From contig CAMPDV010000063.1 of NCBI GenBank assembly GCA_946699065.1, positions 292,501-356,500 on the forward strand: a DNA stretch of 64,000 nucleotides, in the 5' to 3' direction. Numbering within the stretch: position 1 is the stretch's first letter; each line of letters opens with the position of its first letter. The stretch is from Loxodes magnus (lineage: Eukaryota; Ciliophora; Karyorelictea; Loxodida; Loxodidae). A program made the translations under genes and the position numbers. Below are positions 17,742 to 63,846 of the stretch, piece after piece. The notes under the pieces were generated by a model. It saw only the letters and a list, made by a program, of their open reading frames with translations, searched no databases and had not been told where the DNA came from.

Positions 17742-17813
17742 GGGCTGCTACGGGAATTGAACCCGTGACCTCTCGCACCCAAAGCGAGAATCATACCACT
17801 AGACCAAGCAGCC
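17742..17813 (-). tRNA. tRNA-Pro (anticodon UGG)
   Basis: A 72-base cloverleaf read on the minus strand. The acceptor stem GGCTGCT pairs with AGCAGCC, followed by discriminator C. The anticodon stem CTCGC/GCGAG encloses the loop TTTGGGT with anticodon TGG. The T arm ACGGG-TTCAATT-CCCGT contains the B box. There is no intron. A short T run follows the 3' end on the transcribed strand, as expected for RNA polymerase III termination. It is identical to the copies at 22194, 26927 and 39385. By wobble it would read CCA and probably other proline codons. Confidence 0.97.
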
Positions 17814-22193: not shown

Positions 22194-22265
22194 GGCTGCT
22201 TGGTCTAGTGGTATGATTCTCGCTTTGGGTGCGAGAGGTCACGGGTTCAATTCCCGTAGCAGCCC
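22194..22265 (+). tRNA. tRNA-Pro (anticodon UGG)
   Basis: Same 72-base sequence as the minus-strand copy at 17742-17813, here on the plus strand, with an intact cloverleaf, TGG anticodon, and CTTTTT directly after the acceptor end as the polymerase III terminator. The flanking sequences of the copies are not similar, so the tRNA alone was copied or conserved. Confidence 0.97.
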
Positions 22266-24665: not shown

Positions 24666-26147
24666 TCATTCGTATAACTAAGCATTATAATCTTTGCGAG
24701 GCTTTTTGCAGAAATGGCACGAGTCTTGCTTAGAAAATGTTTCTTAACTGCAGCTATCACATTTCCATCTCATATAAAAGTAGCAAAAAACTTCTGCTAA
24801 GCTATCTTTATTACTACATAGCATGCAATAATAACTTGAATAAGGGTTTTCTTGTTTACAATTTTTGCAAGTTCATTTTTTTATAAGAAAGTGGGGAGAA
24901 GGCTTTTTAAACTTTAAGGCAAATTCTTCTAAGCTCCTATAATCTTGCAGCTTTAATGTGTTCTCTTCATAAGATTCACTTTTAGCATAAATCAATACTG
25001 TTGGATAAAAATGACACCTGACGCACTTCTTCATTACATCAAGCCAACCTTTTATGTCTTAGATATAAGTATCATCGAAATAAGTCCAAATATCCTCTTA
25101 AGGTTTAGTTTTAAAAAATGTGATATAATGTAAGCTTTAGAAACAGATCATTCCTCGTAAAACATAAAAGGTATTGCTTCTATTATTTTCTTAGGTTAAC
25201 TAATTTATGTCTATAGTATTTGTTATGAGAGCGAAGGAGGTGAGAATGCTTTCGAATGAAGGATTACTTTTCCAAACTAGATTAATAAGGAAATATTATG
25301 ATAATTATTAAGGTATTAAAAATCTTACGCTATCTTTGAAAGGACATTAAACTTATCCTTGCTGATTTTCATTTTATTTAGGACACTACTTAACTTTGTT
25401 GATTTATTTAGATCTTCTTTCTGCTTCAACAAACTTATGAATTGCTTGCTAAATTTTAAATTCTTGTTAGCCTTAAGAAGGTAAATTTTCCAGAAGCTCA
25501 TGAACATAAATATTATATAAGAAGTGGTTTTAATTATAAAGAACTGGCTAGCTAATGGCACCACAATTGCATTTTAATTACTCTAAAAATTCGCAATAAA
25601 ATAACTGGTGAGTTAAGCACTGCTTGCCACAAGAAATATCTCTTGCTTTGGAAAGACTTTGCTTTACATAATTAGCATGGATTAAATCGAGGACTACTGA
25701 CAGAGCTTCTGATGCGTCAGCCATCTGCATCTCTTAAAACTCTGAATCTTATTTTTCAAGTTATTTTCTCATCTAAAAGATACTAATCGTGTTTCCTTCG
25801 CAAGAGCTTTTAATTTCATATTCTCTTAGCAATGCTTATAAGCTGCACACCAAACAATTATGATTCTACTAGTTCTTGTTAGCGCACTAAATATTCTGGA
25901 ATGCCTTTTAAAACTCCTTAAGATTTCATAGCAGCTATATTACTACATTTAAAAAACAGTTCTATTAATTAAAATTATTCTCTAACCCTACAAAATACTC
26001 TTATACTACTATCTAACCACTTTACTAGCTTTGAGTGCTAATCTAAGAAGTTCCTTTATGATAACCTTTTAAATGCTCAGCATATTAGGCAATAGGAACT
26101 TTGCAAGGAATTTCTTTACATCACTTACAAAGAATAAAAGGATCCAT
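24666..26147 (-). CDS. USP53/54-type ubiquitin carboxyl-terminal hydrolase with RanBP2 zinc fingers
   Basis: 493 residues. Residues 7-30 form a small C/H-rich finger (CKWCKEIPC...H..GYH). The USP fold spans about 54-388. Its Cys box is GLENNFNQQNCFLN with Cys64 and continues VVIQLLWNLKEF, matching the LNSA.QVLWHLDIFR block of USP53/54. C..H motifs (CGKQCLTHQ, CNCGA) follow at about 173-196. The His box GMICFQSLHYITFF holds His340, then WTYFDD (358-359) and a C-terminal PTVLIY. The tail carries two RanBP2-type fingers, W425-T-C..C and W461-K-C..C, each with paired cysteines. Codons 9, 74 and 425 are TGA and all fall on Trp positions; Trp at 292, 354, 368 and 461 is TGG. Expected role: cleaving, or binding, ubiquitin chains, with the fingers as likely ubiquitin-binding modules. 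USP53/54 proteins were long thought inactive; here Cys and His are both present. Confidence 0.93.
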
Positions 26148-26926: not shown

Positions 26927-26998
26927 GGGCTGCTACGGGAATTGAACCCGTGACCTCTCGCACCCAAAGCGAGAATCATACCACTAGACCAAGCAGCC
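26927..26998 (-). tRNA. tRNA-Pro (anticodon UGG)
   Basis: Identical in sequence to the copies at 17742, 22194 and 39385. Intact acceptor, anticodon and T stems, with a run of T after the acceptor end on the minus strand. About 780 bases upstream of the USP gene and on the same strand, but transcribed by a different polymerase. Confidence 0.97.
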
Positions 26999-39384: not shown

Positions 39385-39456
39385 GGGCTGCTACGGGAAT
39401 TGAACCCGTGACCTCTCGCACCCAAAGCGAGAATCATACCACTAGACCAAGCAGCC
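39385..39456 (-). tRNA. tRNA-Pro (anticodon UGG)
   Basis: Fourth identical 72-base copy, with an intact cloverleaf and TGG anticodon. AAAA precedes it on the plus strand, which is the T-run terminator of the minus-strand transcript. Confidence 0.97.
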
Positions 39457-40005: not shown

Positions 40006-40361
40006 TAAATAAATAAATAAATTTGATTATAGAGCGCGTAGCACTCTCGTTGATGCGAAGCTCTTTAAAAAAAATGTTTCATACTGACAAGAATGTTTGT
40101 TACTGATAAAATTATCAGATACTGATAAATCTTGTTCAATATTAGTATAATTATTCAGTACTGATAAAAATGTTCAATACTGATATAATTTTAGAATACT
40201 CGTAATCTTTAATACTTGCTGGAGGTCCAAGGACATGGCAGGATTGTGTCTCATTACATCACCAAAGCAGAGGACGACATGTGTCAATTATGGGTACTTA
40301 AATTCCCCAACCTCTGATGAAGATGACCTTGTTGTTCACCTTCGAACAACTATGGCGGTTT
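40006..40361 (-). mobile_element. SINE-like retroposon, copy A (single-unit head)
   Basis: Read on the minus strand: head AAACCGCCATAG with a perfect small hairpin (TTGTTC...GAACAA), one unit beginning CATCAGAGGTTGGGG and ending CTTGGACCTCCAGC, then several degenerate copies of an ATCAGTAYTGAA motif, a run of T/A, the 3' hairpin (AGAGC...GCTCT stem) and a TTTA-repeat tail. The other two copies carry this unit twice. A 3' short-repeat tail and no coding capacity are typical of SINEs. The TTGTTCGAAGG segment is only weakly like a polymerase III B box, so the origin of the head (tRNA, 5S or other) is open. No clear target-site duplication was found. Confidence 0.75.
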
Positions 40362-43300
40362 AAAGAATATATATATAATAAAACTTTAAATATAATGATA
40401 TTATTTAAATTTTATTTTAATTAAGACCATTCTCTGTCAAATTAAAACATTTTATATTTGATAATCTAGCTATTAAGTTTTTTTAACTACAAATATATAA
40501 ATTGAATAATTAGAAAAATACTTAGTTTAATAAGCTTATATATCTAAGATAGATTTTTAATTATAGTAATAATGATGATCATAAATATTCTTTTAATATA
40601 AAAATTAGCATTTTTAGAAAAGTTGTAAGCTGTCAATTTTATAGTTAATTATTTTTTTTATTTTTTATTAATTTGTTAAGAAAAATTAAATTTAAAGGTT
40701 TTGAAAAGATAATAAATTTTATGAAAATCGATTTAAAATATTTAATTTAGTATTATGACAAAAAACTTTGATATTAATGCTGCAATTAAATGCTAAAGAA
40801 ACAATGCTATTTTTTATTTTATCTATCAAATAAATTTTAGAAAAAAATATTTACTTTTAAAAAATATTTTAGCAATAATACTAAATCTCGAAGAGCAAAT
40901 TAATTTTAAGATGAATTACTTAGTTAAGATATAGCTGTAAATATTTAGAATTATAGTTAGGTAAAAGTATATAAATTGTTAAATAAAAGTTATTTATTTA
41001 ATGAAATAATTTTTTAAATTAAATATTTTATAAATAAACTATTATAGTAACTAAATAATAAACAATTCGTAAATTTAAAATAATTATTTTTTAAGATTTT
41101 TTAATTTTTAATTAATATTTATTAACTTATAATTCCAATTAAGATCTTCAAATAAATCTATAAAAATATTTTTTCTCTTATAATATTGAAAATATTTTAA
41201 CAATTAATCCTAAAATCTTACCTAAAAAGGAAAATAAATATTTTAAAATAAAAAGTTTGAATAAAGAAAATTATAATTCAATTTTAATAATAGGCTTTAT
41301 AAATTTACTTAAATAATAATAATAATATTTATATTAAATCAATCTTATTTATTTACTATTTGCTGTTAATATCAAACTTGATTTATCGAATCAAAGATGA
41401 AAGAAAATCTATTAAAATTTTTGTTGTTTTTAAACGGGAAAATTATAAAAACCTGGTTCTTTAACTTTCAATTAATGTAATAGATTTAATTTTAAACAGA
41501 TTTAAAAAATATTCTTTTTGGAAGATTTTAAAATAAAAAATATAACAATTTTTTTAAACATTTAAATAAATTAAAGGATTAAATAGAGAAAAATTTATGA
41601 AATTTTCGCTTTTTTAATTATTTTAATTAAATAGAAAACTTGCTTAATAAAATATGATATAATATATAAAAAAATGTAAAAATTTTATAAAGATAATTTT
41701 ATTGGTAAATTTAAAATATTTTGAAATTAAATTAAATCAAATCAAAAAATTATAATTTAAAAAACAATTATTTTTTTAATTTCACCAAATATTTAATATG
41801 AATTTTTATTTAACGCTTTGAATATTAAGAAATTTAAAAAATTTATAATATTTTTGATTTTATTTTTTAAATCATTATAGAATCTTACTTTTACAAATAG
41901 TTTAAAATATTTTACGTTATTGCAATGATTTCTATTTGTAATTTTTTTTTGTTATTAAAAAAATAAAATAATTTTTTATTTATATTTGGTTGCATCTCCT
42001 ATTATCATTATATGATTTTTTGATATACCCATGTGTAAGTTAAATTAAAATAAATTTGCTTATTTAAAAATTATTTTGCCAAACATCATAAAATTTCATT
42101 AGTATTATTAATAATATTCAAATCTTTATAAAGCTTGCTTTATAATTAAAGCTGCAGACCCAAGTCTTTAAACGTTTATTTTCGCATTCTTTTTTCACTT
42201 TTTATATCATTTTATAACTTAATTACTTTTTAATCATTTAATATCGATATATAAGCTTGCATAAGGACTTCCTTTATGAATGTTTAGTAAATGAAGAATT
42301 TAAAGAATTAGAATACTTCAATCCAAGTAATTAATTTTTTTCAAGTTAAACTTGAAGATTTTATTAAAATGTTTGAATATATTCCTTTTAAGGCATAAAT
42401 TCTAGAACTTATTTTTAAATTTTATGGATCTAAGGGATCTTAAACTTATTTCATATCTATGATTTAATTTTTGGAATTATTTTAACGTAATATTATAGTT
42501 AACTTCGTCAAATTAATTCAAAAAACAAAATTGTCTTAATAGTAGCAAAACATTCAAAATTTAAAAGAAGAAAATAAAATTTAGTAAAAGCTATTTTTTT
42601 CTAAGTTTTATGGAATCATTAAGATTTAATTAAAAAAAAATTTTCTTAATAAGACTAATATAAAAATAGATATAACTTTAGTCTTTACTCTTTTATTAGA
42701 CTCTTCTCATTTTAATTCAAAGCATTGTATTTAAAAGTATAATTAATATCAGATAGATGGAATCTTTAATTTTAAAATCTTTCCTGATTTTCATTTAATT
42801 AGGCGATTATGACAATATAGTAAATTAAATAAACCCCATTCAACCATTTGATATAAGTATTATAATCAAACAATTAACAAATTCAACGATATTTTGAATA
42901 ATTAACCATGAAATTAACCTTTAAAATTAAGTTTGCTATAGAAATATGAGACATTTCTATAATCTTAAAAATTTAAAAAGCATATCTCAACTTCCAACTA
43001 ATACCTAAATTAAAAATTATTACCTTAAAATTTATTTAGTGAGAATTATAAATTTGATTTTTACTTGAATAAGAGTCTTATTGTTATTTAAAAAATTCAT
43101 TCGCAAATATTCATTAGTAAAAATTCATTGCAGTTTTATTTAATACAATGAGTTATAAATATCAGATTCTTTTTAGTCCTAACTAATTCTATTTGCAAAA
43201 TTTAGTAGATTTAGTGCTTTGAAGTTTTACTTTTAATTTAATAAAATTTACTAGGAAGTTATAAGATTAAGGACTTATTAAGACTTTTTAGTAGTAAGCT

Positions 43301-52972: not shown

Positions 52973-53366
52973 GATTTTTTTTTAAGTTCAAAGTGATTTG
53001 ATTTTAAAATATAATTAAATTTTCAAAGAAATTTAAAAATTTTTTATTAAAAAAATTTTATTTTACATAGTTTACAATTTAAAAAATTGTATAACTTAAA
53101 TAAATAAAGAAAAAATTTTAATTTAATTTTACTTAAAAAAAAAATTTGAATACATTTTTAAGAAGTTTAATATATTTCTTAAAACTGGAAATTATTTTAA
53201 AATTTATGTAGCTTTTGGATTTTTTAACCTTAAGTAAAAATATTTTTATTTTTCAATTCAAAAAAGTGAAATATAAATATTTCTTCTATATAGGGTATTT
53301 ATTACGAAATTATAAAATAAATATTTTTGCATTATAATAAATTGTTGAATTATTATATAATATTTT

Positions 53367-53872
53367 AAAACCGCCATAGTTGTTCGAAGATGAACAGCAA
53401 GGTCGTCTTCATCAGAGGTTGGGGAAGTTAAGTACCCATAATCGACTTTATGTCTTCCTCTGCTTTGGTTTGGCCTCGAGACATAAGATTCTTAGACCTT
53501 CGGCGCTGGCTTCGTTTATTTTTAATTCTGGAACTAAAAAGAAATAATATTGCGAGCTTCATCAGAGGTGGGGAATTTAAGTACCCATAATTGACACATG
53601 TCGTCCTCTGCTTTGGTGATGCAATGAGACACAATCCTGCCATGTCCTTGGACCTCCAGCAAGTATTAAAGATTACGAGTATTCTAAAATTATATCAGTA
53701 TTGAATATTTTTATCAGTACTGAATAATTATACCAGTATTGAACAAGGTTTATCAGTATCTGATAATTTTATCAGTAACAAACATTCTTGTCAGTATGAA
53801 ACATTTTTTTTAAAGAGCTGCGCATCAACGAGAGTGCTACGCGCTCTAGAATCAAATTTATTTATTTATTAT
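53367..53872 (+). mobile_element. SINE-like retroposon, copy B (two-unit head)
   Basis: Head AAAACCGCCATAG, then two tandem diverged copies of a unit of roughly 150 bases: the first has GAAGTTAAGTACCCATAATC and GGTTTGGCCTCGAGAC, the second GAATTTAAGTACCCATAATT and GGTGATGCAATGAGAC. The ATCAGTAYTGAA repeats, the hairpin at 53814-53847 and a TTTATTTATT tail follow. Very similar to copy C at 63.3 kb along its length. Small open frames inside it are incidental. Confidence 0.8.
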
Positions 53873-59083: not shown

Positions 59084-59155
59084 GGCTGCTCGGTCTAGTG
59101 GTATGATTCTCGCTTTGGATGCAAGAAGTCACAGGTTCAATTCCCGTAGCATCCC
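59084..59155 (+). pseudogene. Degenerate tRNA-Pro (anticodon UGG)
   Basis: A 72-base relative of the four intact tRNA-Pro genes, but with substitutions that break pairing in three stems: the acceptor 3' side AGCATCC against GGCTGCT, the anticodon stem CTCGC/GCAAG, and the T stem ACAGG/CCCGT. The loop keeps the TGG anticodon and a T run follows. About 85 bases upstream of, and divergent from, the zinc-knuckle gene start. Probably a decaying gene copy; a functional variant cannot be strictly excluded. Confidence 0.85.
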
Positions 59156-62520: not shown

Positions 62521-63324
62521 TTTTCATTTAATATATTAGAAAAAATAAGTAAATATCCATTATTAATTTAATAAATTAATAGGAAATATTTTATTAACTT
62601 TAGAAGATTTTAACAGAAATAATTAAAGAATTGTATACAATTATTGTTGATAAATAAAATTGAAATATTTGAAGTTGCAAGTCAATTTTATTTGTTTTCA
62701 GTCTTACTGAGTTATGAAAATGATGAACTAAATCAGCTTAGAAATAATTTTTCTTGGTTTATAACTAGGATTTAAATTTTAAATCAGAAATTAAGGAATT
62801 CAAGTTTTTCGTTTAGAGTTGAATAATGAATAAATCAAGTGAAAGTTCAATTGATTTTAAATTATTCATAAATATCGTATGCAAATATATAAAATATTAT
62901 CTAGAATTTAATATTAATTTCAACTTATATATACGAAAATCCTTTTGCATAAATACTTGAAAAAATAATCTAACTTAATAAATTAATTTTTAAAATGAGA
63001 AGAATTTTAACTTTTATCTAAACTCTCTATAGCTTTTAAAAGTTATGTAATATGAGTATATTTATTTATAACTATTAACAATATTATTAATTTCAATCTA
63101 AAAATAGATTTAAAACACTTTTCTATTTTTATTTTCTTTAGTTTTATATATTTTATAGTTCATTAGTTAATTTAAAATACACATAGTAGAATAATTTGTA
63201 AAAAAAGACTGCTTATGATTAAAAATAACTAAATAAAGAATTTATCTACTTAAAGAAATATTGTTAAATGTATGTTCTCTTCTGAATTAATTATCTTAGT
63301 TTATAAATTTATTATCATTTCTTT
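62521..63324. other. AT-rich stretch before the last SINE
   Basis: No supported feature. Confidence 0.5.
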
Positions 63325-63846
63325 AAAACCGCCATAGTTGTTCGAAGGTGAACAACAAGGTCATCTTCATCAGAGGTTGGGAAGTTAAGTACCCATAATC
63401 GACTTTATGTCTTTCTCTGCTTTGGTTTGGCCTCGAGATATAAGATTCTTAGACCTTCGACGTCGGCTTGACTTGGTTTCGTTTATTTTTAATACTGGAA
63501 CTAAAAAGAAATAATATTGCGAGCTTCATCAGAGGTGGGGAATTTAAGTACCCATATTTGACTCATGTCGTCCTCTGCTTTGGTGATGCAATGAGACACA
63601 ATCCTGCCATGTCCTTGGACCTCCAGCAAGTATTAAAGATTACGAGTATTCTTAAATTATATCAGTATTGAATATTTTTATCAGTACTGAATAATTATAC
63701 CAGTATTGAACAAGGTTTATCAGTATCTGATAATTTTATCAGTAACAAACATTCTTGTCAGTATGAAACATTTTTTTTAAAGAGCTGCGCACCAACGAGA
63801 GTGCTACGCGCTCTATAATCAAATTTATTTATATTTATTTATTTAT
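63325..63846 (+). mobile_element. SINE-like retroposon, copy C (two-unit head)
   Basis: Same organisation as copy B: AAAACCGCC head with a TTGTTC/GAACAA hairpin, two tandem head units, ATCAGTAYTGAA repeats, the 3' hairpin at 63781-63814 and a tail of TTTA repeats to about 63846. It differs from B by scattered substitutions and a short insertion in the first unit (around 63466). Copies B and C share the dimeric head and are closer to each other than to A. The similarity suggests fairly recent activity. Confidence 0.8.

Follow-up and report, generated by a model that had tools for sequence, protein, structure and literature searches.

It is almost certain that, in a ubiquitin hydrolase gene of the ciliate Loxodes magnus, UAA and UAG specify Gln, UGA specifies Trp inside the gene and UGA acts as a stop only near the end of the mRNA, the product likely being an active USP53/54-type deubiquitinase. 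An earlier sequence-only reading had seen here one codon with two meanings, the karyorelict-type ambiguous code, and this matches translation table 27 as published for Loxodes magnus (PMC11441545). The finding of a two-meaning UGA is correct and the code is already known for this organism, since table 27 has been described for Loxodes; according to passages of that paper (PMC11441545), UGA means Trp when the poly(A) tail lies far downstream, and it also serves as the only stop. A codon of this kind is at odds with the notion that a code is fixed, and the present gene gives a clean worked example, in which TGA and TGG alternate at one Trp among paralogues and between tandem fingers of one protein.

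The gene lies in a stretch of 64 kb, called the window hereafter, with a GC content of about 20%. On the minus strand the frame runs from an ATG at 26147 to a TGA at 24666 and, translated with table 27, comprises 493 codons plus a stop, uninterrupted and with no need for an intron. TGA occurs in frame at codons 9, 74 and 425 and again as the terminal codon 494, Trp is written TGG at codons 292, 354, 368 and 461, and TAA and TAG occur 25 and 14 times, respectively (39 together). The 494-codon frame with three in-frame TGAs, four TGGs and a closing TGA, as described earlier, is thus borne out at 26147..24666. With table 11, a single stop-to-stop frame of at least 100 amino acids is listed in the 64 kb; it has 129 codons and lies outside this gene. 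A self-trained coding model gave eight segments in the window, the USP53/54-type gene among these, and a comparison of eight in-frame translated stretches of the window with Pfam gave no family above the cut-off. The window also holds a three-copy repeat, about 400 to 500 bases long (53354-53870, 63322-63832 and, inverted, 40008-40375); the copies are 89-98% alike in the aligned pieces and have a GC content of about 0.43 where measured.

The translated protein matches the Pfam family UCH over residues 54-366 (2.6e-20), and among solved structures its sequence is closest to human USP54 (8c61, 9.6e-32), with USP2 following as the next USP chain at 0.04. In the alignment to USP54, W74 faces a Trp, and both putative catalytic residues (Cys 64 and His 340) are retained. 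The elongated Cys loop, GLENNFNQQNC, aligns without gaps with GLSNEPGQNSC of USP54, that of USP2 being two residues shorter, and the segment before the catalytic His reads MICFQSLHYITFF against MICYYGKHYSTFF in USP54. Passages of PMC12037411 state that USP53 and USP54 are set apart from other USPs by two traits, the lengthening of the loop that precedes the catalytic Cys and an unusual pre-His segment, and that the human USP53/54 were found active. K63-linkage-directed cleavage is a further mark of the USP53/54 deubiquitinases. Because the human proteins are active, the Loxodes enzyme is probably active as well, and the gene product is likely a USP53/54-type deubiquitinase with predicted activity.

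Judged by its motifs, the product carries a C2H2-like finger at its N-terminus and two RanBP2-like fingers at its C-terminus, the motif W-x-C-x2-C ... C-x2-C being present twice. The Pfam search of this protein gave no Zn_ribbon_RanBP match and the structure search reached an RNF31 finger at 0.71, a weak match, while RanBP matches below the cut-off were obtained in three of seven in-frame paralogues (loci L012, L013 and L016). A homologue search in 5.8 billion predicted proteins returned none at E <= 0.001, perhaps because such databases use ordinary codes for gene calling. The features of the gene are collected in the table, together with the tRNA arrays discussed below.

Table. Features of the USP53/54-type gene (positions in the window) and of the tRNA-Trp arrays (positions on contigs C67 and C148 of the same genome)
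Feature	Position	Strand	Basis
USP53/54-type ubiquitin hydrolase gene	24666..26147	-	table 27 frame, UCH 2.6e-20, USP54 9.6e-32
Codon 9, TGA as Trp in N-terminal C-x2-C / H-x4-H finger; paralogues aromatic or hydrophobic	26121..26123	-	frame, paralogues
Codon 64, catalytic Cys (NCFLN)	25956..25958	-	inferred from USP54 alignment
Codon 74, TGA = Trp after QLL, Cys box	25926..25928	-	paralogue rows, USP54 Trp
Codon 340, catalytic His (LHYITFF)	25128..25130	-	inferred from USP54 alignment
Codon 425, TGA = Trp, residue 1 of first RanBP2-like finger	24873..24875	-	paralogue rows
Codon 461, TGG Trp, equivalent place in second finger: internal control	24765..24767	-	paralogue rows
Codon 494, TGA as stop	24666..24668	-	aligned position in L010/L011, similarity and GC drop
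tRNA-Trp(CCA) tandem arrays	C67:482324-491201, C148:157295-168215		examined: L062 (C67:482200-483000), L063 (C148:157200-157900)

Eighteen places of the same genome match the USP53/54-type protein, itself included, the weakest of the other 17 at 1.7e-7; these relatives (L009-L026) were seen at about a dozen loci and their zinc fingers varied. The codon-level alignment contained 16 rows including the gene itself, the near-identical L019 and L020 being left out and two genes being each split across two rows. With the reference gene counted, column 74 was TGA in nine rows and TGG in five, and nothing else. Column 425 was TGA in seven rows, TGG in four and Gly in one. At the positions where the gene has TGG, the two codons were also mixed: seven TGA and seven TGG in both column 292 and column 368 (7/13 TGA in each among paralogue rows alone), eight TGA, five TGG and one Tyr in column 354 (8/13), and three TGA and six TGG in column 461 (3/8). 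Over this alignment as a whole and without masking, 246 of the 470 residues opposite TGA were Trp, the remainder lying in variable columns, and 69% of those opposite TGG were Trp.

A masked test was also made, in which TGA was replaced by X before alignment and only TGAs in conserved columns were judged. In the USP54-like rows 41 of 66 TGAs were judgeable and all 41 fell in Trp columns. In a broader sample of UCH loci (28 in all, the eight best and 20 hand-picked from 111 matches), 17 of 86 were judgeable, with Trp in 11 and Pro, Tyr and Glu in two each. The corresponding TGG control (six sites, none Trp) is uninformative, because masking strips TGA from those very columns. The glutathione peroxidase (GPx) genes, an independent family, agree with UGA = Trp: their WNFGKF motif is written with TGA in L059 and L060 and with TGG in L058 and L061. 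A TGA of L047, a Pelota-like gene, counts against it, lying at a position where the human protein is not known to have a Trp.

At codon 9 the evidence is of another kind. The counterpart residue in the first finger, compared by eye, is Phe in L010 and L023, Tyr in L011 and L016, Leu in L015 and Ile in L017 and L021; in L013 the finger is doubtful and the residue is Ser, and L012 has no finger within the stretch examined. Of the proposal that the family requires Trp at all three TGAs, the part concerning codons 74 and 425 stands on the paralogues, and for codon 74 on USP54 too, while the part concerning codon 9 fails, with Phe, Tyr, Leu or Ile in seven paralogues; codon 9 would fit Trp without being diagnostic, and "requires" is overstated.

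The assignment of UAA and UAG to Gln, also made in that reading, was upheld in the sense that Gln is the commonest consensus residue at conserved TAA/TAG sites, though not everywhere the majority. In the USP54-like rows the consensus was Gln at 15 of 30 conserved TAG sites and 15 of 44 TAA sites, and in the UCH set at 21 of 36 TAG sites and 15 of 64 TAA sites, the latter having Glu at 14; for comparison, CAA had a Gln consensus at 8/18 sites in the former and 16/34 in the latter.

That the internal TGAs are instead selenocysteine codons is highly improbable. Such a reading could draw on three tRNA-Sec(UCA) genes above the Rfam gathering score and a SepSecS gene in the genome, and on the location of codon 9 inside a C-x2-C pair. 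However, at columns 74, 292, 354, 368, 425 and 461 it is TGG that alternates with TGA, where Sec would be expected to alternate with Cys, and column 9 is F, Y, L or I in seven paralogues and never C. Selenoproteins usually have one Sec, which also counts against three such codons in one gene. The possibility that the TGAs lie inside short spliced introns gains some appeal from the size of L. magnus introns, given in passages of PMC11441545 as 19.3 bp on average with 93% at most 25 bp, but excision would remove the conserved Trp and neighbours that align gap-free with the paralogues and, at codon 74, with USP54, and this explanation is given almost no weight.

Translated with table 6, the ordinary ciliate code, the frame falls into shorter pieces, as premature stops arising from a pseudogene or from assembly errors would have it. 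Against this, identity to locus L010, one of the two closest paralogues, is kept on both sides of the TGAs at 74 and 425 (32/64 over codons 10-73, 166/349 over 75-424 and 34/68 over 426-493), these two TGAs stand in Trp columns, and in-frame TGA was counted by hand in 99 of the 111 UCH places of the genome, many of which are near-identical copies; this account is scarcely credible. The selenocysteine, intron and pseudogene readings were thus weighed and rejected on the TGA/TGG interchange, the alignment and the identity, and a fourth, concerning a cognate tRNA, on the tRNA evidence given below. Apart from this question, UCH-domain genes were observed to be highly repeated on contigs C1431, C365, C1234, C3033, C141 and others, frequently with many members on one contig that score almost alike, and are perhaps tandem or mobile families.

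The reading of UGA as Trp inside the gene is accompanied by evidence that the last TGA is a stop. L010 and L011, the two closest paralogues, share a terminal TGA at the aligned position of codon 494. Identity to L011 over the same three segments is 27/64, 162/349 and 28/68, and past codon 494 identity falls to 11/51 with L010 and 11/55 with L011. The GC content of the 150 nt before and after the terminal TGA is 0.33 and 0.18 in this gene, 0.31 and 0.24 in L010 and 0.31 and 0.19 in L011. L012 has no TGA at the aligned stop position and continues into a third finger, which starts with TGA. TGA is, by eye, the closing codon of two eRF1 frames and four GPx frames as well. The view that the same frame closes at TGA accordingly holds, the stop position being common to L010 and L011 and similarity ending after it. 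In this one gene the last 68 codons contain no TGA; under table 27 UGA would be depleted in the last ~20 codons. Under the proposed mechanism UGA would be read as Trp within the gene and termination would take place at UGA only near the mRNA end.

Inspection of the release factor, suggested together with the original observation, found a pair of close eRF1 copies (L048 and L049) 35 kb apart, both with the motifs RAQNIKS and FLCENTF, the human counterparts of which are TASNIKS and YLCDNKF. Their frames contain both TAA and TAG and, by eye, end at TGA. According to passages of PMC4967479, earlier work saw no clear connection of individual eRF1 changes with particular codes.

As for the tRNA, a search for a gene with anticodon UCA had also been suggested; with one pattern no tRNA-Trp(UCA) was found genome-wide, and an Rfam model gave three tRNA-Sec(UCA) genes. 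A cognate tRNA-Trp(UCA) would be the simplest route to UGA = Trp. The pattern, however, gave 30 matches against 53 in the reversed control. By eye, none of the 30 agreed with the CCA genes in its T-arm sequence, and none of the four examined with ARAGORN was a tRNA; this single pattern would miss a gene that has diverged, the import of a mitochondrial tRNA or editing of the anticodon. Reading by a cognate tRNA rather than by tRNA-Trp(CCA) is considered unlikely.

The pattern for tRNA-Trp(CCA) with G37 gave 131 matches in the genome against four in the reversed control. An initial pattern (TCCAA...), which assumed A at position 37, had been rejected as no better than noise, with 119 matches against 155 in the control. 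Among 100 of the 131 matches listed, at least 48 by hand count stand in tandem on C67 with a spacing of ~187 bases and at least 46 on C148 with a spacing of ~241, with one more nearby, while two are singletons on C110 and three are likely chance. At least 95 array-type rows among the matches listed have an identical string with C at position 43. The pair 27-43 is broken in all eight array copies examined, as A.C in 4/4 from C67 and U.C in 4/4 from C148, which leaves an anticodon stem of 4 bp, and is U-A in both C110 singletons, with a stem of 5 bp. ARAGORN called all ten examined copies tRNA-Trp(CCA). Because the pair 27-43 is broken and tRNA-Trp(UCA) was not found with the one pattern, the 4-bp-stem tRNA-Trp(CCA) is the likely candidate for the UGA reader; by this mechanism the short stem would increase readthrough of UGA in cells.

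The copy number of tRNA-Trp is a weak sign of anything special, because the genome also repeats a 30-base piece of the tRNA-Pro(UGG) of the window, with 129 exact copies that are scattered and not in tight tandem. Five tRNA-Pro(UGG) genes, four of them identical, lie in the 64 kb with unrelated flanks (17742-17813, 22194-22265, 26927-26998, 39385-39456 and 59084-59155), and at least 21 copies of the piece are on contig C63 among 100 of the 129 listed.

Selenocysteine may be a third meaning of UGA in the genome, as its machinery hints. The tRNA-Sec(UCA) genes L050, L051 and L052 score 73.9, 70.5 and 63.5 bits with the Rfam model, for which 47 is the cut-off. Of the 52 matches the remaining 49 fall short of that value, two of two checked being tRNA-Ser, and the model is above the cut-off in five of 14 control genomes. 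A SepSecS gene lies at C53:630645-631820 (1.9e-104), a family which also matches in three of the 14 controls, B. subtilis among them. A search of the GPx genes for selenocysteine found Cys in all four (L058-L061), at the place that holds Sec in selenoproteins. At C1173:21361-28060, five weak matches to the tRNA-Sec model 1655 bases apart score as do ARAGORN-called tRNA-Ser(UGA) copies; this is probably a tandem tRNA-Ser array.

Taken together, a broader scheme can be put forward tentatively, as possible rather than probable: UGA would mean Trp, stop and probably Sec, Trp being inserted by a dedicated, tandem-amplified set of ~95 to 126 4-bp-stem tRNA-Trp(CCA) genes beside a few canonical 5-bp ones. 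If true, two classes of tRNA-Trp would share the work between them, which is directly testable; the two classes make UGA = Trp without a cognate anticodon testable in one organism, and the selenocysteine machinery does the same for how three UGA meanings would be kept apart.

These features can be compared with known systems. The protein resembles human USP53/USP54 in its UCH match, extended Cys loop, similar pre-His segment and QLLW/QVLW box, and differs from them in its additional fingers, one C2H2-like at the N-terminus and two RanBP2-like at the C-terminus, and in having about a dozen related loci inside one genome. Tandem tRNA-Trp arrays in Loxodes were absent from the titles and abstracts surveyed, which cover the relevant literature incompletely, so no priority is claimed, and the genome paper of L. 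magnus (PMC11441545) does not use the word "tRNA" in its main text. A 4-bp anticodon stem in tRNA-Trp(CCA) is given in passages of PMC13092985 for Blastocrithidia, Condylostoma, Blepharisma and Loxodes, the last second-hand; those systems share with the present one the broken 27-43 pair, the CCA anticodon and UGA = Trp, whereas tandem arrays beside 5-bp singletons are unmentioned in those passages. In Condylostoma magnum, according to passages of PMC4967479, tRNA-Trp(UCA) was not found and tRNA-Sec was, as in Loxodes here; UGA means Trp, stop and selenocysteine in the codes of Condylostoma magnum and Parduczia, so that three UGA meanings were stated earlier for these two, but UAA and UAG can also stop in Condylostoma magnum, whereas they are sense codons in the Loxodes gene. 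With the karyorelict code of table 27, in the passages of PMC11441545 that describe it, the likeness extends to UAA/UAG = Gln, UGA = Trp and only stop, and low-GC flanks; the code is identical, and the difference is that here a single gene is resolved codon by codon.
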